Part shown: positions 1-20,737 of the stretch, in pieces
Position numbering within the stretch: the stretch's first letter is position 1
Layout of the letters: every line of letters starts with the position of its first letter
Source: Tannerellaceae bacterium
Lineage (GTDB): Bacteria > Bacteroidota > Bacteroidia > Bacteroidales > Tannerellaceae
DNA: 20,737 bases
Reading direction: 5' to 3'
Assembly (NCBI GenBank): GCA_031265595.1
Contig: JAISCM010000068.1
Coordinates: forward strand, 1-20,737
The notes under the pieces: model-generated
Told to the model about the DNA's origin: nothing
Seen by the model: only the letters and a program-made list of their open reading frames with translations
Database searches by the model: none
Position numbers and translations under genes: made by a program

Positions 1-1073
1 CTTCTGTTCGTGCCGTCGTAATATTCTATTTCGCGCCCATCGAAAGCCGGGCCGAAACTATAGTCGGAAGCGCCGATCAACGAAGGCTTTCCCTTGCCAT
101 TGTAATAGAACTGGCGGTAGTTGTCGTACGTATAGTAATTACCGTTTGCATCTTTTTCTCCGTAATTTACGTTCGGAGGAACGGCGCCATTGCCAAATTC
201 ATTCTGTAAATCAGGCGTAGCAGTAACCAGGTCCATACCGAACGTCTGCGATACGTTGATACCCAATCCCTGTCCGGCCCTGCCGTTTTTTGTGGTAACC
301 ACCACGGCTCCGTTCAAACCGCGCGAACCATAAAGCGCTGTTGCCGCAGCTCCTTTCAGTACGGATACCGATTCAAAATCGTCGGGGTTTAAGTTCTTCA
401 GTTCGTTACCGAAGTCATTGGCCTGCCCCGACCAGTCCGGGTCTCCCTGTTTGATTGCATTGTCTAAGATAACGCCATCTACCACGTAGATAGGCTGGTT
501 GTTCTTTCCCAGCGTAGAGACGCCACGGATAAGGATCTTTGTAGAACCGAACATCCCCCCGTCTGAGTTGGCTATTTCAACCCCCGCTACTTTACCCTGC
601 AAAGCAGCTACAGGGTTGATAAGGTTTGCATTAAGGCCGTCTCCGCTGATTTCTTTCATGGCATACCCCAATGACTTTTCCGAACGCTTCATCCCTAAAG
701 CCGTTACCACCACCTCATCGAGCGCCAGCGCGTCTTCTATGAGCATAATGTTTAGATGGGCCTGCCCTTTTACTACAAACTCCTGCGGCAGGTATCCGAT
801 GAAAGACACAATAACGGTCTGTCCCTCTTCTACCTCAAGAACAAATTGCCCGTCCATATCGGATATGGTTCCCCGGGCCGTTCCTTTGATAGCGATCGAA
901 GCTCCGGCAATAGGGCCTAAAGCGTCTTCTACAGTTCCGGAGAGTTTCCTTGTCTGTTGAGACGCCTCCAGTTTGTCATGGATCGTCAGGGCGCCGGATG
1001 CATGCATATTTCCTGCCATGCCACACATTACAGCCACTAACAATGTACTAATCAATCTTGATTTTCTTCTCAT
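1..1073 (-). CDS. SusC/RagA-family TonB-dependent outer membrane receptor, N-terminal part (runs off left edge)
   Basis: Reading from an ATG at 1073 leftwards, the frame stays open for 357 codons to the window edge. Seen: a signal peptide (about residues 1-26, MRRKSRLISTLL...), then a carboxypeptidase-regulatory-like domain (about 43-115, with KLSGTVEDALGPIAGASI), a TonB-box-like DEVVVTALGM, and a plug domain with the SusC/RagA hallmarks LQGKVAGVEI, IRGVSTLG, PIYVVDG and ALYGSRGLNGAVVVTTK. The family is an outer-membrane barrel of about 1000 residues that imports glycans or peptides with a SusD partner. Only the plug and the beginning of the barrel are in view. There is no STN domain, so sigma/FecR signalling is not expected. 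It is divergent from the regulator at 1299, which is the likely controller. A susD gene presumably lies beyond the left edge. Substrate unknown. Confidence 0.95.
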   Translation of the reverse strand, partial: MRRKSRLISTLLVAVMCGMAGNMHASGALTIHDKLEASQQTRKLSGTVEDALGPIAGASIAIKGTARGTISDMDGQFVLEVEEGQTVIVSFIGYLPQEFVVKGQAHLNIMLIEDALALDEVVVTALGMKRSEKSLGYAMKEISGDGLNANLINPVAALQGKVAGVEIANSDGGMFGSTKILIRGVSTLGKNNQPIYVVDGVILDNAIKQGDPDWSGQANDFGNELKNLNPDDFESVSVLKGAAATALYGSRGLNGAVVVTTKNGRAGQGLGINVSQTFGMDLVTATPDLQNEFGNGAVPPNVNYGEKDANGNYYTYDNYRQFYYNGKGKPSLIGASDYSFGPAFDGREIEYYDGTNR

Positions 1074-1298: not shown

Positions 1299-3104
1299 AT
1301 GAAAAGAAATATACATTTACCGTTAATAGCATTAGCTCTCGTTGTTAATTTCACAGTGGCCGGACAGGAGATTTATTCAGTATTATCCCATACTTCCGGG
1401 CCTGTGCTGCCTTACGATAAGAATATGTTCAGCCCGCCATTCGCCTCTTCCGCTTATCTGGCCTGTCTGTTGTTGCTGGCGGTAGTTATTGTTCTAATTA
1501 TACGAACAAGGAAGAGCCGGGATCTGCTGAAAGCCTCCCTGGAAAGAGAAAGAAAAGAGGTGGCAAGGATAGAAGAACTGAATAAAAACAAGATGGATTT
1601 ATTCGTCAATGCCTCCAACGAGTTCCGTATCCCCCTGGCCATTATTATATCCCTTATCGGCCGTATGCCAGAGCTTTCGCCGGGCGGAAAAAACAAATTA
1701 GAGAAAATCAAAAGGCAGGTGTCGCGCCTGGAAGACCTTGTGACTGAGATGCTCGACTTCCGGGAAATGGAACAAAACAAACTCCGCCTGCAAATCGGGA
1801 AGTACGACCTGGTAACGTTCATACAAACCATTTATTCAAACTTCAGCGATTATGCCTCCGAGAAGGAAATAAGCTTTAAATTCAATCAACGTACCGAGTA
1901 TGCTCCCGTATGGTTTGACCAGCGCCAGATGCAGAAAGTATTTTATAATCTGACGTCGTTTATCTTTAAAGCCTCCTCACCCAAAGATACGGTTGCCGTC
2001 TCCATCCACAGCATAACCGGCTACTGGAAAGTACAGATCACGCAAATAGCCGGAAGCAGGAATAAGAAAGAATGGGATGGCCTGATGCTGCCCGACGGCG
2101 ATATCGGGATCGCTTTCAGTAAAGGAATCCTTTCCTTGCATAAAGGTTCGGTCAGCATTTCGCGCGAAGAGGATAAAATCATCCTGATCGTATCGATCCC
2201 TACAGGTATCGCCCATCTCGACATGGAAGATATACAAGACGAGCCGGAAGCATCCGGACAATCGCAGCCCTTCTCTCTCTCCGGCAGGATGGCGGAAGAC
2301 GACGCGGAGCTATTGCCGGAATCGGAATCGGAATCGGAAACAGAAAAAAAGGCGTATAAAATGGTATTGGTAGAAGGCGATGACGAGATGCGCCACTTAT
2401 TGAAAGAAGCCTTTTCCATGCAGTATGAAGTAGCAGCGTTCGACAATGCCGGCAGCGGATACGCCTACATTATAGAAGAAAAGCCGGATATTATTATCTG
2501 CGAAATAAATATGCCGGAAGTATCGGGCATTGAGATGTGCGCCAAACTGAAATCGAATATTTACACCCACCATATACCGGTTATTTTAGTAACCTCTCAA
2601 CCTTCCGACCGGCAGTATATGGAAAGTATCCGGAGTGGCGCGGAATATTACTTCGTCAAACCATTTAATATACGTATTCTGTTCCTTCGTTGCAACTATC
2701 TGATAAGGAACCGGCAACTCATCTTGCAACAAAAGCTGGGACTACAGGAGGAGATGCTTGAAATGGCAACCAACGAGCGGGAACAGAAGTTTTTGGCCGC
2801 CGCCCACTTAGTAGTAGAAGAGAATAGCAACAACCACGCCTTCGATACAAAAATGTGGTATGAGAGACTGGGAATAGGACGAACCCGCTTCTTTAACCGC
2901 ATAAAGGATATAACAGGGATGACGCCAAACGATTACCTGATTTACCTGAAGATGCATAAAGGGCAACAGTTGCTGAAGGAAGACAACGGATTTACAATTG
3001 CCGAGATAGCCTACCGGTTAGGATTCAGCCATCCGGCTTATTTCAGCAAATGCTTTAAAAAACAATTCGGTATTACGCCGCAGGAATATAAGCGCAACAA
3101 CTAA
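1299..3104 (+). CDS. Degenerate hybrid two-component regulator (HTCS-derived), membrane-anchored, AraC-type output
   Basis: The 601-residue protein has a signal peptide (1-22), a short periplasmic piece (23-48), a PPF...AYL membrane segment (about 48-68), a coiled linker, a HisKA-like region (about 93-157), an HATPase-like region (about 205-302), a receiver-like domain (about 354-468) and an AraC HTH pair (about 500-600, with AEIAYRLGFSHPAYFSKCFKK and ITPQEYKR). True HTCS proteins are about 1300-1400 residues with a large periplasmic propeller sensor; that part is absent here. Catalytic positions are lost. The phospho-accepting His is N107 (FVNASNEFR instead of the usual ISHEFR). The second N-box Asn is F221. 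The ATP-lid glycine motifs are eroded. The receiver phospho-acceptor Asp is E402 (CEINMP), and one of the acidic pair is G360. Receiver K454 and the HTH look intact. The frame is uninterrupted, so it is probably a functional phosphorylation-independent regulator of the divergent susC. Confidence 0.85.
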   Translation: MKRNIHLPLIALALVVNFTVAGQEIYSVLSHTSGPVLPYDKNMFSPPFASSAYLACLLLLAVVIVLIIRTRKSRDLLKASLERERKEVARIEELNKNKMDLFVNASNEFRIPLAIIISLIGRMPELSPGGKNKLEKIKRQVSRLEDLVTEMLDFREMEQNKLRLQIGKYDLVTFIQTIYSNFSDYASEKEISFKFNQRTEYAPVWFDQRQMQKVFYNLTSFIFKASSPKDTVAVSIHSITGYWKVQITQIAGSRNKKEWDGLMLPDGDIGIAFSKGILSLHKGSVSISREEDKIILIVSIPTGIAHLDMEDIQDEPEASGQSQPFSLSGRMAEDDAELLPESESESETEKKAYKMVLVEGDDEMRHLLKEAFSMQYEVAAFDNAGSGYAYIIEEKPDIIICEINMPEVSGIEMCAKLKSNIYTHHIPVILVTSQPSDRQYMESIRSGAEYYFVKPFNIRILFLRCNYLIRNRQLILQQKLGLQEEMLEMATNEREQKFLAAAHLVVEENSNNHAFDTKMWYERLGIGRTRFFNRIKDITGMTPNDYLIYLKMHKGQQLLKEDNGFTIAEIAYRLGFSHPAYFSKCFKKQFGITPQEYKRNN

Positions 3105-12492: not shown

Positions 12493-13662
12493 ATGAAACA
12501 CAAAACTTTCGGATTACTGATCCTCCTTATTTATCTCTGTACCGGTTCCGCAGGGGCGCAAGAAGATATAAAGATCACGCACGGGCCTTATCTGCAAAAC
12601 ATGAGCGACAACGAAGTAACGATCGCCTGGCTGACAAACAAGGGCGCCATATCCTGGGTAGAAGTGGCGCCGGATGATGGTACGCACTTTTATCTGATTG
12701 AACGCCCCAAGTACTTTGCCGCTAAAAACGGAGTGAAGCTGGAGGGTACGATCCACACCGTTAAACTGACCGGCCTGAAGCCGGGAACCAGGTACCGGTA
12801 TCGCGTCTTCTCGCAAGAAGTAACCGGCAGGCAAGGCCACCAGATATTCTATGGAAAAGTAGCTTCCACCGCTGCCTACCAGACAGGCCCCCTATCGTTT
12901 ACAACAAATGACCACACGAAAAAGGATATGACGTTTACCGTAATAAACGACATCCACGGACGGAGCGATATGATGAAAACGCTGCTGGAAATAGCCAAAC
13001 CTACCCTAAACGACCTTGTCTTCTTTAATGGCGACATGGTATCGTCTATGAATAACGAACAGGGGCTGTTCGATGGCTTTATGGACACAGGCGTAGAAAC
13101 GTTTGCCAAGGAAATACCCATGTATTATTGCCGGGGCAACCATGAAACGCGCGGCCCGTTTGCCACGAAATTTCAAGACTATTTCTCTCCGCTGAACCCC
13201 GAATTGTATTTTCTGGTAAGGCAAGGCCCCGTTTGCTTTGTAGTATTGGACAGCGGAGAAGACAAACCCGATACCGATATTGAATACAGCGGGATTACCG
13301 TATACGATGACTACCGCACACAGGAAGCGAACTGGCTCAAAGAAGCCCTCAAACAAAAAGAATTTACCGAAGCGCCGTTTAAAGTAGTGATCTGCCATAT
13401 ACCCCCCTTCGGCGGATGGCATGGCGAACAGGAAGTGCTGAATAAATTCGTCCCCCTGCTAAACGACGCCCAGATAGACATTATGCTATGCGGACATCTA
13501 CACCAACACATTAAAAAAGAAGCCGGCGAACAGGTTAAATTCCCCCTCCTGGCCAATGGAAACGAAGCCGTAATAAAAGGGAAAATAACCCGGAACGAGC
13601 TGGTACTGGATATCATTGGCCTCGACGGAAAGCCGGTAGACCGTATTGCTATCAGGAAATAA
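12493..13662 (+). CDS. Exported metallophosphoesterase, purple acid phosphatase-like
   Basis: The protein has 389 residues with a signal peptide (1-22, ending GSAGAQ). An N-terminal fibronectin-type/purple acid phosphatase-like beta domain (about 27-140, THGPYLQNMSDNEVTIAWLTN; HTVKLTGLKPGTRYRYRV) is followed by the calcineurin-like phosphoesterase core. All dimetal motifs are present: NDIHG (D153, H155), FNGDMV (D181), CRGNHE (N216, H217), VICHIPP (H302) and CGHLHQH (H335, H337). It should hydrolyse a phosphate mono- or diester in the periplasm; the substrate is unknown. The start codon is separated from the FAD oxidoreductase stop by a single nucleotide, so translation is probably coupled. 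The final ORF codons are followed within 18 bp by the sigma factor ATG, where base composition changes abruptly. Confidence 0.93.
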   Translation: MKHKTFGLLILLIYLCTGSAGAQEDIKITHGPYLQNMSDNEVTIAWLTNKGAISWVEVAPDDGTHFYLIERPKYFAAKNGVKLEGTIHTVKLTGLKPGTRYRYRVFSQEVTGRQGHQIFYGKVASTAAYQTGPLSFTTNDHTKKDMTFTVINDIHGRSDMMKTLLEIAKPTLNDLVFFNGDMVSSMNNEQGLFDGFMDTGVETFAKEIPMYYCRGNHETRGPFATKFQDYFSPLNPELYFLVRQGPVCFVVLDSGEDKPDTDIEYSGITVYDDYRTQEANWLKEALKQKEFTEAPFKVVICHIPPFGGWHGEQEVLNKFVPLLNDAQIDIMLCGHLHQHIKKEAGEQVKFPLLANGNEAVIKGKITRNELVLDIIGLDGKPVDRIAIRK

Positions 13663-13680
13663 ACGCAGTTGCCTTATCCA

Positions 13681-14271
13681 ATGAATGAAATTGATATACA
13701 ATACTTTGAAAGAATAAAAAATGGAGATGAAGCAGCTTTTAAGGTTGTTTACAATAAATACTATCCAAGGCTGTATTACTTCATTTTTGAGTTTATCCCT
13801 CAAAAAGATATTGTTGAAAACATTATTCAGGATACTTTCTTTGTACTATGGGAGAAAAGAAAAAATCTAAAAGATGATACAAACCTTTCTTCTTACCTAT
13901 TTTCTGTCGCCAAAAATAACTGTTTATATAAATTACGTGATAAAAAGTATCGTGAAAAACTATTTGTTTCCAAAAGTTTAGAATTATCTGAGATGGAATT
14001 GAATTATGAGGCATTGAATAAAATCGACATTTCAACCTTTACTTTCAAAGAAATAGAAAAAATTATAGAAGAAACTCTTGATCAACTGCCACCGCAATGT
14101 AGAAAAGTATTTGAGCTTAGCCGTTTTAAAGGAATGAAAAATGCTGAAATAGCAACGGAGCTCAATATTTCTGTAAAAACAGTAGAAGGGCATATTACGA
14201 GAAGTTTGAAACTATTCAAATATACGCTGAGGGATTATTTGCCACTTGTCTTTTATTTGTTTATTCGTTAG
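13681..14271 (+). CDS. ECF RNA polymerase sigma factor (Bacteroides expansion type)
   Basis: The protein has 196 residues from the ATG at 13681 (MNEIDIQYFERIKNGDEAAF). A TTG 12 nt earlier also keeps the frame open but is less likely. Sigma region 2 spans about 20-85 (AAFKVVYNKYYPRLYYFIFEF...IIQDTFFVLWEKRKNL...SSYLFSVAKN). Region 4 spans about 132-185 (LDQLPPQCRKVFELSRFKGMKNAEIATELNISVKTVEGHITRSLKLFK), with the helix-turn-helix at AEIATELNISVKTVEGHI. This is the family that pairs with FecR-type anti-sigma factors and STN-bearing SusC receptors, both of which follow here. There is no room for a promoter between the metallophosphoesterase stop and this start, so it is either read through from that operon or driven from inside its 3' end. 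It is very AT-rich compared with its upstream neighbours. Confidence 0.95.
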   Translation: MNEIDIQYFERIKNGDEAAFKVVYNKYYPRLYYFIFEFIPQKDIVENIIQDTFFVLWEKRKNLKDDTNLSSYLFSVAKNNCLYKLRDKKYREKLFVSKSLELSEMELNYEALNKIDISTFTFKEIEKIIEETLDQLPPQCRKVFELSRFKGMKNAEIATELNISVKTVEGHITRSLKLFKYTLRDYLPLVFYLFIR

Positions 14272-14285
14272 ATACATACAACTAT

Positions 14286-14315
14286 TTTGATCATTTCCGA
14301 AAAAAAATAAATTTG
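14286..14315 (+). promoter_or_regulatory. Housekeeping-type promoter of fecR
   Basis: TTTG (14286-14289), an 18-nt spacer and TAAATTTG (14308-14315) form the best two-box match to the Bacteroidetes consensus in the window. Transcription would start near 14322, only about 16 nt before the GTG at 14338. This favours the ATG at 14356 as the start of the FecR gene. Confidence 0.6.
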
Positions 14316-14355
14316 CAGCAAGGGTAAATGACTATTCGTGCAATATAACTATAGC

Positions 14356-15375
14356 ATGTCAATTATGAATAGTATCGAAAACATAGTAAATCTGGTAACA
14401 GGGGATCTGGATTCTGAAGACAAGAAGAAAATTCTTTCGGAAATCAGTACGAACGTGGAATCCAAAAAGGAATTCTACAAAATAAAGGCTGTGTGGGCTC
14501 TTTTTTCCTCTACAAAGAAAATGAATCAGTATGAAATGGAAAGAACATACATTGAACTACAAAGAAGAATCCACAGAAAGTCTTTTCATCCTAATTTGAG
14601 AATAAATCCATTTATTCGTTATGTGGCTGTTCTTATTGCCATTATCGGATCCTCTCTACTATTTATTAACTTAAATAAGCAAACCCGCTTCTTTGAAGAA
14701 GTAAAATATACAACTGTAATTGCAGATTATGGCCAGATATCAAAAATCATATTACCGGATAGCTCAGTAATATGGTTGAACTCTGGAACTACCATGACAT
14801 ATAACAACCGTTTTGCTATAACAAACAGGGATTTAATTCTTGATGGACAGGCGCATCTGGAAGTAAAAAAGGAGAATGATAATCCCTTAATTGTAGCATG
14901 TAAAGATTTAAGAATTAAAGTTCTTGGAACAACGTTTGATGTAAACGCCTATATGGATGACGAAATAATTCAGATCATATTAGAATCCGGCAAAGTTCAA
15001 TTATTACGAACAGATGACAACTCTTTCGATTATCAACTCAAACCGGGTGAAATAGCCCAATACAATGTACATTCAAAAAACGTTGCTATCGAAAAGATCA
15101 GCCCTTCCGATTATGCTTCCTGGAAAGATGGTTATTTATTATTTAATGAGACTCCACTGTGCGAAGTTATTGAACAACTGGAACGTAAATTCAATGTAGA
15201 TATTCATGTAATAGATACCGAAGTTTATAAATCTGTTTTCAATGCTAAATTTAATAAGGAGAGTTTATCTGAGATACTGAACTATATTGAGTATTCCTGC
15301 CCTATCAAATACAAGATCATAAAAAGGAATAATGAACCCACAGAAGAAATCGAGTTTTACTATCACCCTAAATAA
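14356..15375 (+). CDS. FecR-family anti-sigma factor
   Basis: The protein has 339 residues from the ATG at 14356; another in-frame ATG is at 14365, and a GTG at 14338 would add six residues. The N-terminal cytoplasmic sigma-binding part (about 1-80) is followed by one membrane segment (86-106, FIRYVAVLIAIIGSSLLFINL). A periplasmic FecR domain (about 118-218) carries ISKIILPDSSVIWLNSGTTM, and a C-terminal DUF4974 domain (about 258-325) carries YLLFNETPLCEVIEQLERKF. This is the standard layout: the protein holds the sigma factor until the STN domain of the SusC partner signals ligand. It sits 66 nt after the sigma gene and has its own promoter match in that gap, so its level may be set independently of the sigma factor. 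Confidence 0.95.
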   Translation: MSIMNSIENIVNLVTGDLDSEDKKKILSEISTNVESKKEFYKIKAVWALFSSTKKMNQYEMERTYIELQRRIHRKSFHPNLRINPFIRYVAVLIAIIGSSLLFINLNKQTRFFEEVKYTTVIADYGQISKIILPDSSVIWLNSGTTMTYNNRFAITNRDLILDGQAHLEVKKENDNPLIVACKDLRIKVLGTTFDVNAYMDDEIIQIILESGKVQLLRTDDNSFDYQLKPGEIAQYNVHSKNVAIEKISPSDYASWKDGYLLFNETPLCEVIEQLERKFNVDIHVIDTEVYKSVFNAKFNKESLSEILNYIEYSCPIKYKIIKRNNEPTEEIEFYYHPK

Positions 15376-15419
15376 CATAAAATGATTTTGCCTATGAAGA
15401 ACTAATCTGTTAATCAATC

Positions 15420-15445
15420 AAAAAGGAGATGCTGGTAACACCTCC
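15420..15445 (-). terminator. Rho-independent terminator of the antisense RNA
   Basis: On the minus strand, GGAGGTG (15445-15439) pairs over its full seven positions with CATCTCC (15431-15425), including one G-U. The loop is TTACCAG, and TTTTT (15424-15420) follows directly. On the plus strand the stem carries an A-C mismatch and no T run follows, so the signal is directional. Confidence 0.65.
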
Positions 15446-15496
15446 CTTAAGAATTCATGTGCCAATTATAAGCTTCGGCACAAGTATTATAGTAAA
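15420..15496 (-). ncRNA. Predicted cis-antisense small RNA over the susC leader (DonS-like)
   Basis: On the minus strand a promoter match (15530-15502) is followed by about 75 nt that contain a first hairpin (TGTGCC/GGCACA, 15482-15458) and then a terminator-like hairpin with five T's (15445-15420). Both stems fold better on the minus strand: in each, an A-C mismatch on the plus strand becomes a G-U wobble on the minus strand. The RNA would be complementary to the 5' leader of the susC mRNA. Antisense RNAs of this size and place, between an anti-sigma gene and a susC, are known in Bacteroides (DonS in B. fragilis) and repress the locus. Identity with that family is an inference from layout. 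Confidence 0.6.
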
Positions 15497-15501
15497 TTAA
15501 A

Positions 15502-15529
15502 CAAAAGTATGAAAAAAAAGAATCACAAA
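15502..15529 (-). promoter_or_regulatory. Promoter of the antisense RNA
   Basis: The minus strand reads TTTG (15529-15526), a 16-nt spacer, then TACTTTTG (15509-15502), an exact TAnnTTTG box. The spacer is a little short of the usual 19-21 nt. The -7 box overlaps the first base of the susC start codon, so sense and antisense transcription compete for the same site. Expected start near 15495. Confidence 0.5.
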
Positions 15530-18500
15530 ATGATTTCTGTGCTAAAATCAGCGCAGAAGTTGAAAACATTTAAAATGATGAGGATAATTGTTTTAGCATT
15601 ATTTGCAATAAACTTCCATTTATTAGCTGTAAATACCTATTCTCAGAGTACCTATCTAACGTTAGATATCAAAGATGCAACCATCAAAAATGTATTAAAC
15701 AACATTCAGCAAAATTCCGAATTCTTTTTTATATATGATGCCTCCGTGGTCAATGTACAAAAGACTGTTTCTATCAAAGTTAAAGATAAATTAATACCGG
15801 AAATCTTAGATGAAATATTCAAGGGGTCAACCATTGTTTATAAAATTGATGGACATCAAATAGCGCTTACAACGCTGAAAACGCTATCTGCTGAAACCCG
15901 GCAAACCGGGATAATCACGGGTAAAGTTACCGATTCTTATAATGACCCATTGCCGGGTGTTACTGTAGTGGTAAAAGGAAGTTCACAGGGCACAGTTACC
16001 GATATAAATGGTGAATATGTATTATCTGATATTCCAACAGGAGCTGTTTTACAATATTCATTTATGGGAATGAAAACACAGGAAGTCGTAATTGGGAATC
16101 AGACAGTTGTAAATATCGTACTACAAGAAGACCTCATCGGATTAGAGGAAATAGTGGCAATTGGATATGGGACGATAAAGAAAAGTGACCTGACAGGAGC
16201 AGTAAGCGCAATAAAAAATGAAGATTTCAATACGGGTTTAAATACAAACGTACAACAATTATTTCAAGGGAAAATAGCAGGAGCCCGGGTAATTCAGAAT
16301 ACGGGAGAGCCTGGCGGTGGTATATCGATGACGATTCGTGGGGCTAGTTCGATCAATGCCGGTACTGCACCACTCTATGTAATTGATGGAATACCAATGG
16401 ACAATGCCAGTGTTGTATCAGGAGGCGGGAATCTTTTCTCCGGGAGTTTCACTCCCCGTTCTCCTTTGGGAACTCTGAATCCGAACGATATAGAGTCTAT
16501 TGAAGTGCTAAAGGATGCATCAGCTTCGGCAATATACGGTGCGCGAGCTGCTAATGGAGTGGTGCTTATTACAACTAAAACGGGAAGAAAGGGTAAACTG
16601 ACAATCGATTATGATGCTTCTGTAGGCATCCAAAGCCCTTCGTATAAATACGCCTTGCTCAGCCCACAGCAATATATGGATGCCGTAAACGCTATCATTG
16701 ATGCAGGAGGTGCTTCCGATGCAGAAAGAGTATCCTTTAATGGTACAGGAACCGACTGGCAGGAAGAAATATTTAACAGAAATTCCTTTGTTACGAATCA
16801 TAATCTATCCATTTCCGGCGGTAGTGAAAATACCAATTATCTGACTTCATTGTCTTTTTTATCGCAACCGGGTGTTATTATAAACAATGACTTCAATCGC
16901 ATTACGGCAAGAGTAAATATTGACCACAATATAAATAATAGTGTAAAATTAGGAATCAGGCTCAGTAATACCTATACAGATGAGAAATACATCCCGTATG
17001 GTTCGGGATATAATGAATGGGCTGGCGTTATTAACTCCGCATTAAATTATGACCCTACATTGCCGGTAACAGATAAGGATGGAAAATATTCATTATCTAA
17101 CTGGATTGCCATTGATAATCCTCTATCTATTGCCAACGGAATTAATTCCAAATCAAACAGGTATAACACGATTGGTAACTTCTTTGCTGAATACTTTATT
17201 ATTCCTTCACTATCCGCAAAAATTAATGTGGGCGTTGAAACAACCTCTGAATTCAGGAAAACCTATCTGAGTCGCCTCTCCCTTTTAGGTGCAGGAACAG
17301 GAGGTACCGCCAATGTATTAACAGGAAACCGGTCAAGTTATTTACTTGAAGGATATTTGAATTATAAAAAGGATTTGAAGGATAGCTCGCTTAGTGCATT
17401 GCTTGGAGGTACCATTCAAAACTTTACGGCATTCAATTCCAATGGCTCAACGGCTAATTTCCCATCGGATGCAACAGGCGCCAATAATCTTGGACTGGGC
17501 GATCCTTTTTTCTCTGAAGTGAACAGTAATAAATCGGGTTATACGCTTAATTCTTTTTTTACCCGGCTCAACTACTCACTATACGACCGGTATCTGCTTA
17601 CAGGAACGTTGAGAGCAGACGGTTCTTCAAGATTCGGTAAAAATAACAAATACGGTATATTCCCCTCGGTTGCATTGGGTTGGAAAATCAGCAATGAAAA
17701 GTTCATGGAGAACATAACGTTTTTTAATTCTTTAAAATTACGAACCAGTTGGGGAGAAACAGGAAATCAGAATATAGGTAATTATCAATCGTTGAATACG
17801 TTTCAGGAAGGTCCCAAAGTAGTTTTCAACAATAACCTTACCTCAACGACCGCTTCTTCAAGAATACCGAATCCTGATTTGAAATGGGAAAAAACAGCCA
17901 AAACAGATATTGGCGTCGATTTCTCACTATTCAAAAACAGAATCGAAGGGAGTGTCGATTACTTCAACCAAAAGACATCGGATATGCTTATCAACCTACC
18001 TGTTGCGAAATCAACAGGGTATGCAAATATCCTACAGAACGTTGGAAGCATGCGGAATACCGGTTGGGAATTCACTCTTATAACCCGTAATATTACTAAT
18101 AAATCATTCACGTGGGAAACAAATATAAACTTAACCACGCTCAGAAATGAAGTCCTTGATATTGGAACTATTGAAAATATCATTTCAGACAATAATATAA
18201 TAACAAAAGGACTTCCCTTACGATCTTTTTATGGATATCAGGTAATCGGAACCTGGCAGGTAAATGACGATTACTCTGCCACAAAAGATGATATGGCTCC
18301 CGGAGATTATAAATTCAGGGATGTAAACGGGGATAAGATCATAACAGCAGACGACCGGGTCATTTTAGGTAATTCATTCCCAAAACTCACCTACGGAATG
18401 ACTAATTCATTTAGTTATAAAGATTTTCATTTAAGTTTTGTAATTGAAGGAGTTTCCGGTATAGAGAAATATAATGAAAATGTGGCAGAAACATTTAATC

Positions 18501-18859
18501 CGATAAATTTCAGAAGGAATAGAATTGCGGAGCCATTCTTAAATCGTTGGACACCAGAAAATCCTACCAATAAATACCCCTCGTTTGTAAGGCCTAAAAT
18601 TTTAGGAGACAAAGCAGGCGTAAGTTCATATACTATTATGGATGCTTCCTATATAAAATTGTCGAGTTTCCAAATAGCTTACGATTTCATAAAAAGAGGA
18701 AGAGTTGTAAACGCTGCAACAATTTATCTGACAGGACAAAATCTTCTTTTTATCTCAGACTTTATAGGAGACCCGTCAATCGATACTACTGATGGCGTTA
18801 GTGACAACGCTTATCCTCTTCCCCGAATTTTCACTTTAGGTATTAAATTAAGTTTTTAA
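15509..18859 (+). CDS. SusC/RagA-family TonB-dependent receptor with N-terminal STN signalling domain
   Basis: The protein has 1116 residues. A long N-terminal leader (signal peptide hydrophobic core about 25-40, cleavage near VNTYS-Q) is followed by an STN domain (about 48-122, LDIKDATIKNVLNNIQQ), a carboxypeptidase-regulatory-like domain (about 137-206), a TonB-box-like EEIVAIGYGT (213-222), a plug (about 222-355, LFQGKIAGARV, IRGASSINAG, PLYVIDGIP, AIYGARAANGVVLITTK), and the outer-membrane barrel ending in the aromatic LGIKLSF. The STN domain marks it as the signal-giving receptor for the upstream FecR/sigma pair. It imports an oligosaccharide with SusD (12 bp downstream). The start is preceded by an A-rich stretch without Shine-Dalgarno, and overlaps the antisense RNA promoter. 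All domains appear complete and the barrel end is intact. Confidence 0.97.
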   Translation: MKKKNHKMISVLKSAQKLKTFKMMRIIVLALFAINFHLLAVNTYSQSTYLTLDIKDATIKNVLNNIQQNSEFFFIYDASVVNVQKTVSIKVKDKLIPEILDEIFKGSTIVYKIDGHQIALTTLKTLSAETRQTGIITGKVTDSYNDPLPGVTVVVKGSSQGTVTDINGEYVLSDIPTGAVLQYSFMGMKTQEVVIGNQTVVNIVLQEDLIGLEEIVAIGYGTIKKSDLTGAVSAIKNEDFNTGLNTNVQQLFQGKIAGARVIQNTGEPGGGISMTIRGASSINAGTAPLYVIDGIPMDNASVVSGGGNLFSGSFTPRSPLGTLNPNDIESIEVLKDASASAIYGARAANGVVLITTKTGRKGKLTIDYDASVGIQSPSYKYALLSPQQYMDAVNAIIDAGGASDAERVSFNGTGTDWQEEIFNRNSFVTNHNLSISGGSENTNYLTSLSFLSQPGVIINNDFNRITARVNIDHNINNSVKLGIRLSNTYTDEKYIPYGSGYNEWAGVINSALNYDPTLPVTDKDGKYSLSNWIAIDNPLSIANGINSKSNRYNTIGNFFAEYFIIPSLSAKINVGVETTSEFRKTYLSRLSLLGAGTGGTANVLTGNRSSYLLEGYLNYKKDLKDSSLSALLGGTIQNFTAFNSNGSTANFPSDATGANNLGLGDPFFSEVNSNKSGYTLNSFFTRLNYSLYDRYLLTGTLRADGSSRFGKNNKYGIFPSVALGWKISNEKFMENITFFNSLKLRTSWGETGNQNIGNYQSLNTFQEGPKVVFNNNLTSTTASSRIPNPDLKWEKTAKTDIGVDFSLFKNRIEGSVDYFNQKTSDMLINLPVAKSTGYANILQNVGSMRNTGWEFTLITRNITNKSFTWETNINLTTLRNEVLDIGTIENIISDNNIITKGLPLRSFYGYQVIGTWQVNDDYSATKDDMAPGDYKFRDVNGDKIITADDRVILGNSFPKLTYGMTNSFSYKDFHLSFVIEGVSGIEKYNENVAETFNPINFRRNRIAEPFLNRWTPENPTNKYPSFVRPKILGDKAGVSSYTIMDASYIKLSSFQIAYDFIKRGRVVNAATIYLTGQNLLFISDFIGDPSIDTTDGVSDNAYPLPRIFTLGIKLSF

Positions 18860-18871
18860 AAAACTCAAGTT

Positions 18872-20341
18872 ATGAAAAATAAATATCATGTATTCGTTTT
18901 AATTAGTATACTTTCCATTTCAGCAATGATGAGTTGTGAAAGCAATTTAATGGAAAAACCTGATTCAGAATTGTCCAACAATACTTTTTTACCTTACAAA
19001 GAAGGGATAGAAAGTGTGCTGTTTGCAGCCTATGCCTATACAGCGAACTTATTTGATTACAACGATAACGACCGCTATGCCATTCAGGAAATGTGTACGG
19101 ATATTCTATGGCAATCCGGTGGCGGGGAAAATGGGCGAGCTATACAAATCATTCAATTTACCTGGGATGCAAGCCATGGATACTTACCCCGGTTTTACGA
19201 TATTCCTTATAAGGCTATCAATCATGCCAATATTGTAATTGAAAATATTCAAAATGTGAATGCCGATGATGAGTATAAAGCTAAAATTTTAGCAGAAGCA
19301 CGGTTCTTACGGGCAATCAATTATTATTATCTATGGGACTTTTTCGGCCCTGTCCCACTCAGGAAAAGTACAGAAGAAGCAGTTGAGTTACCACGTCCAT
19401 CAGAAGATGAGCTTCTTAATTTTATAGAAACTGAGTTGAAAGAAATATCCGGTATATTGCCCGATCCGGGGAAAGAGAGCGCTTATGGAAGAGCAAACAA
19501 TGGCGCTTCCCAATCATTCTTATGTAAATTTTATTTGAATACCAGGCAATGGCAAAAATGTGTAGACATGGCTGATGAAGTTATCTCGATGAATTACTAT
19601 CAACTGTTTCCGGTCTATACGGATATATTTAAGGTAGAAAATGACGGCAACAAAGAAATGATTTGGGTACGTCCGGCAAGTTCTCAGAGTACGGATGTAG
19701 GTAATAGATTTATTGCTGTTTCAACACCACCTAATTTCAAGAAAGATCCTGTCTCCGGAATAGAATGGCAAAACAATTGGCAGAATTTTGCTTCCGACTA
19801 TCGTTTATATGATAGTTTTGTAAATTCATTCGCTCCCAATGATATTCGTAGATCCCTTATTTTAACAAGTTATATAGATACGGAAGATAAAACAATTCAA
19901 ATGCTTGGTGATGATTATTCCATGTCATGGAAATACTGGCCCGATCCAAATGCCAACGGAAGCGATCATGGGAACGACCGTGTAGTGATCCGATATGCAG
20001 ATATACTGTTGTCAAAAGCAGAAGCGTTGAATGAACTAAACGGTCCAACCCAAGATGCAGTTGATTTGATCAATCTGATTCGGAACAGAGCAGAACTGCC
20101 GAATCTTATTTTGTCGGACTTTAACACAAAGGAATCATTAAAAGACCATATATTAAAGGAAAGAGGGTGGGAGTTTTATTCCGAAGAAAAGCGGCGTAGA
20201 GATTTAATACGGCACGGTAAGTTTGTTGAATTTGCCCATCAACGAGGTTATACCAATGTTCAAAGTCATCATCAGTTATATCCTATTCCGCAGTTTGTAA
20301 TGGACTCAAATCCTTTACTGATACAAAATGAGGGTTATTAA
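18872..20341 (+). CDS. SusD/RagB-family surface glycan-binding lipoprotein
   Basis: The protein has 489 residues. Its lipoprotein signal peptide ends SAMMSC with the lipid Cys at 22. The body has the SusD pattern: an early helical TPR-like part (EGIESVLFAAYAYT, IPYKAINHANIVIENIQN, AKILAEARFLRAINYYYLWDFFGPVPL), then DEVISMNYYQLFPVYTDIF, and the C-terminal IRYADILLSKAEALNELN...LINLIRNRAELP...ILKERGWEFYSEEKRRRDLIRHGKF. The last helices before the stop carry the usual HHQLYPIPQFVMDSNPLLIQNEGY ending. It caps the SusC barrel at the cell surface and delivers the glycan. It lies 12 bp after susC and 1 nt before the sulfatase, so it is in the same operon. Confidence 0.96.
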   Translation: MKNKYHVFVLISILSISAMMSCESNLMEKPDSELSNNTFLPYKEGIESVLFAAYAYTANLFDYNDNDRYAIQEMCTDILWQSGGGENGRAIQIIQFTWDASHGYLPRFYDIPYKAINHANIVIENIQNVNADDEYKAKILAEARFLRAINYYYLWDFFGPVPLRKSTEEAVELPRPSEDELLNFIETELKEISGILPDPGKESAYGRANNGASQSFLCKFYLNTRQWQKCVDMADEVISMNYYQLFPVYTDIFKVENDGNKEMIWVRPASSQSTDVGNRFIAVSTPPNFKKDPVSGIEWQNNWQNFASDYRLYDSFVNSFAPNDIRRSLILTSYIDTEDKTIQMLGDDYSMSWKYWPDPNANGSDHGNDRVVIRYADILLSKAEALNELNGPTQDAVDLINLIRNRAELPNLILSDFNTKESLKDHILKERGWEFYSEEKRRRDLIRHGKFVEFAHQRGYTNVQSHHQLYPIPQFVMDSNPLLIQNEGY

Positions 20342-20342
20342 A

Positions 20343-20737
20343 ATGAATAAATATTTGATAACAATTTCTTTTGGGTTGCCCTCTTTATTATCCTGCACAA
20401 ATAACGTGGGTAATAATAATAAACCCAATATACTACTTATTATGGCAGACGATATGGGATATTCTGATATAGGTTGCTATGGAGGAGAAATTAGTACCCC
20501 GAATTTAGACCAACTTGCTTCAAAAGGTATTCGTTTTACACAATTTTATAATACTGCCAGAAGTTGCCCTACCAGAGCATGTCTGATGACGGGTTTGTAT
20601 CCACACGAAGCTGGCGTCGGGCACATGACCGGATCAACTATGGGGCATGGATATCTTGGCAGCCTCAATGATTCATGTGTTACAATTGCAGAGGTACTTA
20701 CTAATGTTGGCTATTATACAGGTATGGTTGGGAAATG
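20343..20737 (+). CDS. Sulfatase lipoprotein, serine-type, N-terminal part (runs off right edge)
   Basis: 131 complete codons are visible of a protein that is normally about 450-550 residues. The lipoprotein signal ends GLPSLLSC with the lipid Cys at 18. NILLIMADDMGYSDIGCYGGE carries the metal-binding D36-D37. The active-site signature is S74-C-P-T-R78 followed by ACLMTG, i.e. the [C/S]-x-P-x-R...TG motif. The residue at the formylglycine position is Ser, so maturation would need an anaerobic radical-SAM sulfatase-maturing enzyme. HEAGVGHMTG resembles, from memory, arylsulfatases of the S1 family. It begins 1 nt after the susD stop. It implies that the module acts on a sulfated glycan such as mucin or a host or algal polysaccharide. 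Confidence 0.93.
   Translation, partial: MNKYLITISFGLPSLLSCTNNVGNNNKPNILLIMADDMGYSDIGCYGGEISTPNLDQLASKGIRFTQFYNTARSCPTRACLMTGLYPHEAGVGHMTGSTMGHGYLGSLNDSCVTIAEVLTNVGYYTGMVGK

Follow-up and report, generated by a model that had tools for sequence, protein, structure and literature searches.

The locus raises the question of whether the short gap between an anti-sigma factor gene and the susC homologue downstream of it encodes an antisense RNA directed against susC, and of what else this gap may contain. Open reading frames and Pfam matches were examined in a 20,737-nt stretch of DNA from a Tannerellaceae bacterium (the window). They place on the plus strand, in this order, an ECF sigma factor gene (13669–14271; Sigma70_r2, Sigma70_r4_2 and Sigma70_ECF), the anti-sigma factor gene fecR (14338–15375 in the ORF listing, stop codon TAA at 15373–15375; FecR and FecR_C), a susC homologue with an STN domain (15509–18859; STN, CarbopepD_reg_2, Plug and TonB_dep_Rec_b-barrel), whose leader would be opposed by the antisense RNA, a susD homologue (18872–20341; SusD_RagB and SusD-like_3) and the start of a sulfatase gene. 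By its gene order this is a PUL under an ECF sigma/anti-sigma pair, the setting of the DonS family of PUL-associated cis-antisense RNAs described from Bacteroides fragilis and B. thetaiotaomicron (PMC7366714, PMC10994844). In B. fragilis, antisense RNAs are reported at 15 PULs (work cited in PMC9723704), and for B. thetaiotaomicron 32 that are PUL-associated are reported (PMC10994844); according to PMC11697453, it is not known how DonS works. The closest relatives that we found are Tannerellaceae MAGs, represented by loci L001 (SusC 95 % identical) and L002 (SusC 77 %). The window also contains a second SusC gene, without an STN match and divergent from a histidine kinase/response regulator/AraC hybrid (3–1073, minus strand, and 1299–3104, plus strand), that is, a PUL of another regulatory type.

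The earlier note had read a complete minus-strand transcription unit between fecR and susC, and structure prediction agrees with that reading. The minus strand of positions 15420–15496 folds with −23.6 kcal/mol (z = −3.90), a value equalled or bettered by none of 200 shuffled sequences, vs −13 kcal/mol for the plus strand (z = −0.49; 57 of 200 shuffles equal or better); with its −7 box and its terminator followed by a T-tract, this confirms the observation. The predicted antisense RNA (15497–15420, minus strand) would be about 78 nt long, close to the 75 nt first proposed, its start having been placed at about 15497 by letting the −7 box span −12 to −5, as mapped in Flavobacterium psychrophilum (PMC9723704). 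This length, calculated from the sequence alone, is within the 78–128 nt of the DonS family (PMC7366714), and the lengths predicted for related antisense RNAs have a median of 85 nt (10–90 % range 76–122, n = 77). The terminator hairpin (15422–15448, minus strand) lies 61–87 nt upstream of the susC ATG, opposite the leader as in the DonS family. It ends in the T5 tract originally noticed (15424–15420), but its predicted stem has 12 pairs instead of 7 bp; three of these are G-U on the minus strand and A-C mismatches on the plus strand. A body hairpin with arms TGTGCCGA and TTGGCACA (15458–15482, minus strand) pairs 15482–15475 with 15465–15458 in 8 bp, one of them G-U.

As had been proposed, the putative promoter overlaps the susC start codon. 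The −7 box, TACTTTTG (15509–15502, minus strand), matches TAnnTTTG exactly, and its first T lies opposite the A of the susC ATG (15509–15511). The assignment of a TTTG as the −33 box was not supported: the candidate TTTTG (15526–15530, minus strand) is weak, being separated from the −7 box by a 16-nt spacer where about 20 nt is usual, and no conserved −33 column was visible in 56 related gaps. As a promoter for the primary sigma factor, this region thus combines an exact −7 box with an unconvincing −33 box. In the Bacteroidales gaps, a word resembling GTATTAAC or AGTATTCAC is enriched some 28 nt upstream of susC, and in the window it lies at 15483–15490 (about −26); it could be the −10 element from which the ECF sigma factor transcribes susC, or be conserved as the 5′ part of the antisense RNA.

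Single motifs of this kind are cheap, so the significance of the unit rests on comparison across gaps. An AT-rich gap might by chance combine an inverted repeat and a run of T with a promoter-like word, and counts within the window fit such a reading: CAAANNTATG, which combines the reversed −7 box with the susC start codon, occurs once vs 1.08 times expected, and a generic terminator scan of 13600–20737 yielded five sites vs 4.6 expected, the hairpin at 15422–15448 not among them. A search of the window against Rfam 15 returned no match above gathering score, and the six sub-threshold matches in 15300–15600 were all far under their gathering scores. We compared fecR-to-susC gaps recognised by HMMs built from a first set: 190 gaps, 183 of them unique, of which 171 were kept and 12 were dropped for lack of an ATG giving a gap of 80–400 nt (the next ATG was used when the first susC ATG was less than 80 nt from fecR). 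They comprised 116 Bacteroidales gaps, the window included, from genomes labelled Tannerellaceae, Tannerella, Prevotella, Dysgonomonas and Bacteroides, and 55 gaps of other Bacteroidota, from Pedobacter, Sphingobacterium, Arcicella, Fulvivirga, Aquimarina, Aureibaculum and Myroides records. With a cut-off of −10 kcal/mol or better, antisense terminators were found in 80 of the Bacteroidales gaps and in 41 of the 55 others, vs sense terminators in two and three gaps, respectively. The first set had given 49 antisense and no sense terminators in 65 gaps, with shuffled gaps reaching the cut-off in only 15 of 325 cases on the minus strand and one of 325 on the plus strand, and the pattern was replicated in a fresh set (97 loci, 82 gaps, 79 of them new) with 47 antisense vs three sense terminators in the 79 new gaps. 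By the same rule, the antisense terminator was absent from 50 of the 171 gaps and 32 of the 79. Among SusC loci for which no FecR was found, two of 14 had an antisense terminator, both STN-type, and none of the 11 among them without an STN domain (L129–L139) had one at this cut-off.

The strand on which selection acts was examined in hairpins chosen by Watson-Crick pairs only, of which a strong one was obtained in 117 of the 171 gaps. Irregular stem pairs were G-U on the minus strand in 99 cases vs nine on the plus strand (p = 2.6e-20), with 30 other mismatches, and a T-rich tail followed the hairpin on the minus strand in 85 gaps vs none on the plus strand. Because of the G-U asymmetry and the strand bias of the T-tails, these comparisons provide strong evidence that selection sees a minus-strand RNA, as the earlier note had argued from G-U pairs on one strand and mismatches on the other. 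The gap sequences themselves display the anatomy of the putative unit, its recurrence and the imprint of this selection, and against such numbers chance coincidence is hardly credible.

Comparison with orthologous gaps was necessarily narrower. In 123 family genomes, L001 was the only full-length match to the window gap, and five others gave short matches of 24–42 bases; paralogous gaps were therefore used in place of covariation among orthologues. In L001 the terminator carries a single change in an arm, by which a G-U pair on the minus strand becomes A-U, and another in the loop; the antisense terminator of L002 is stronger (−21.8), and its −7 box is that of the window. The body stem, also part of the unit as first described, is identical in L001, with a changed loop, and is missing from L002; it was rejected as a feature of the family.

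The overlap between promoter and start codon is tied to the terminator across the gap sets. The susC start carries CAAANNTATG in 63 of 116 Bacteroidales gaps, 23 of 55 other gaps and 34 of 79 further ones, and it does so preferentially where there is an antisense terminator: 56 of 80 gaps with one vs 7 of 36 without in Bacteroidales (p = 6e-7), 21 of 41 vs 2 of 14 in other Bacteroidota (p = 0.026) and 32 of 47 vs 2 of 32 in the fresh set (p = 2.7e-8). Among 530 distinct gene starts from the fetched loci, it was present at 44 of 84 SusC starts with FecR upstream and 32 of 130 other SusC starts, and at none of 118 FecR and 198 other gene starts. The bases shared by the −7 box and the susC start mean that the two units collide by design, which suits an explanation by transcriptional interference, in which the act of antisense transcription through the susC promoter and leader has the effect, the RNA itself is incidental, and the terminator only shields fecR. 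Interference would require a terminator but no conserved RNA, yet the terminator apex has the form RTG-loop-CAY in 52 of 121 hairpins vs 19.2 expected from shuffled stems, perhaps a site for loop-loop pairing, and a related small RNA, FopS, pairs with susC start regions (PMC11697453). We thus consider it unlikely that interference is the whole explanation.

The plus strand of the same gap contains another element, located outside the predicted antisense RNA. It is the word most enriched in the Bacteroidales gaps, GCCTATG (59 of 116 vs 0.6 expected), and in the window GCCT (15390–15393, plus strand) directly precedes a mini-ORF, ATG AAG AAC TAA (15394–15405, plus strand), coding for Met-Lys-Asn; another ATG in the same frame lies upstream, at 15382. 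Among the 64 gaps with GCCTATG (59 from Bacteroidales and five others), a stop occurred within five codons in 53 in the frame of this ATG, vs 15 in each of the other two frames. After clustering, the early stops numbered 41, 11 and 11 of 50 by frame (p = 2e-7 and 1e-8), and in the fresh set, in which GCYTATG was present in 31 of 79 gaps, they numbered 24, 9 and 9 (p = 5.5e-5 and 1.2e-4). This replicated enrichment indicates selection for early in-frame stops in the mini-ORF, which may have a regulatory role. The GCYTATG flavour is lineage-biased, since it occurred in 28 of 44 Tannerellaceae vs 3 of 35 Bacteroides-genus gaps of the fresh set. Taking the first ATG in gaps without GCYTATG, the in-frame preference was weaker, with early stops in 29, 14 and 14 of 46 Bacteroidales gaps and 13, 6 and 8 of 30 gaps of other Bacteroidota by frame.

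Upstream of the GCCTATG start, the region around −11 to −15 is rich in adenine (47–89 % per column), in line with the published start preference of Bacteroidota (PMC7366714). It could be argued that GCCTATG is an untranslated signal in DNA or RNA, whether as a piece of the susC promoter for the ECF sigma factor or as a site bound by a trans-acting small RNA. The conservation of GCCT goes beyond the known needs of a Bacteroidota start site; TAAC clusters 21–23 nt before the mini-ORF ATG in 28 of the 64 gaps, as a promoter element might, and the spacing to the hairpin is constant. A signal of this sort does not account for early stops enriched in the ATG frame only, at positions that vary codon by codon, nor for L001, where the mini-ORF is kept with TGA in place of TAA (in L002 there are four codons after the ATG, then TAG). 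On balance we regard an untranslated signal as doubtful.

Alternatively, the mini-ORF might lie in the 3′ tail of the sigma-fecR mRNA, unrelated to susC, considering that 18 nt separate it from the fecR stop in the window and only 4–10 nt in some gaps. Nevertheless, the distance from its start to the hairpin (28 nt in the window; median 29 nt, MAD 3.5, n = 48) is tighter than that to either fecR or susC (MAD 10 each). In addition, GCCTATG stands upstream of SusC genes for which no FecR ORF was found in the preceding 400 nt (L285, L289, L297, L298 and L303) or, in L016, in the preceding 700 nt, which argues that the mini-ORF belongs to susC leaders and makes an origin in the fecR mRNA distinctly improbable. 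In all, GCCTATG was present in 28 of 130 other SusC loci, a count in which nine are biased, since the motif or a resemblance to the window was how they were retrieved (L282, L285, L289, L297, L298, L301, L303, L308 and L058), and in which FecR was cut off or missed in some of the remainder; L282 and L295 are at contig ends.

A search of 247 Bacteroidales genomes for the pattern, with the stop placed one codon after the ATG, found 40 matches in frame and 50 and 26 out of frame, with no in-frame excess, a negative result that counts against the mini-ORF; most matches look chance-like and many genomes had none. G039 and G080 alone gave 4/0/0 and 3/0/0 by frame. With a looser pattern, eight PUL-rich genomes, which are those of the discovery set, yielded 45 matches vs 13 for a reversed control. 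GCCTATG outside the gaps in the fetched loci was somewhat skewed, with early stops in 37, 24 and 11 of 101 by frame, a set that includes some susC leaders beyond the gap rule. In L288 (G007:C127:27038-27058), which matched the pattern by chance, a nearly perfect inverted repeat, GCCTATGGATTA...TAATCCATAGGC, is found 62 nt upstream of an ORF of 103 aa resembling ribosomal protein S10; it is possibly an r-protein leader. One susC leader of B. thetaiotaomicron is only about 77 nt long (PMC11697453), too short to include a mini-ORF at this distance, and a search of the literature gave no description of a mini-ORF in susC leaders among the matches listed.

Overall, the best explanation, to which we assign a probability of about 0.75, is that the fecR-susC gap bears a DonS-type cis-antisense RNA that lowers SusC, together with a leader mini-ORF that may tune its effect. 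RNA polymerase with the primary sigma factor would start on the minus strand at the −7 box overlapping the susC start codon, producing while susC is not needed a transcript of about 78 nt that ends at its dedicated terminator. Since this RNA is the complement of the susC leader to within about 12 nt of the ATG, the two should pair, and SusC would stay low for as long as the ECF sigma factor is not released. With bases common to the antisense promoter and the susC start, transcription of susC and initiation of the antisense RNA would also hinder each other. A ribosome on the mini-ORF would abut the edge of the region of antisense pairing and may help or hinder pairing, or affect the fate of the leader. 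In B. thetaiotaomicron, correlations between antisense RNAs and susC are mixed and some pairs are positive (PMC10994844), which we count against this explanation. More tentatively, with the odds against it, the two elements could be a two-part RNA switch of Bacteroidota susC leaders, made of a DonS-type RNA and a mini-ORF about 30 nt before its terminator, of the GCCT-ATG type in Tannerellaceae and relatives and of other flavours elsewhere, such that the ribosome on the mini-ORF decides whether the leader is seized.

Known systems resemble this arrangement to different degrees. The predicted RNA shares with the DonS family, as described in the sources covered, a position opposite the susC leader of a PUL on the minus strand, its own promoter, an intrinsic terminator, a similar length and the ECF sigma/anti-sigma setting; with the recurrence of the unit and the association of promoter and terminator, this supports the DonS-type assignment first suggested and makes it a probable new member of the kind, with repression as its presumed effect. 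It differs in being found in Tannerellaceae and in the accompanying mini-ORF of the sense leader, which the DonS literature covered does not mention. The B. thetaiotaomicron small RNAs FopS and GibS likewise pair with translation starts of PUL mRNAs, FopS repressing a susC (PMC11697453), but those are trans-encoded, with several targets and imperfect pairing, whereas the RNA predicted here would be fully complementary in cis. An antisense RNA and a short reading frame also coexist in the copA-tap-repA leader of plasmid R1, where CopA blocks tap, to whose translation that of repA is coupled (PMC5717011). In contrast, the mini-ORF of the window ends at 15405, about 100 nt before the susC ATG at 15509, and the antisense RNA ends at 15420, 14 nt short of the mini-ORF; neither coupling nor antisense cover of the leader frame is seen there, so plasmid R1 is at most an analogy. 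In the literature covered we found neither the wide spread of these antisense units, nor the overlap of promoter and start codon as a rule, nor the mini-ORF.

These results point to a general anatomy, with the susC start codon within an antisense promoter, a terminator mostly 80–110 nt upstream and stems whose G-U pairs favour the antisense strand, which would predict which susC genes bear an antisense brake in Bacteroides and beyond. The frame-conserved mini-ORF adds a concrete element of the same leader and, if the two do form a switch, the translation state of the cell would feed into the control of glycan uptake.
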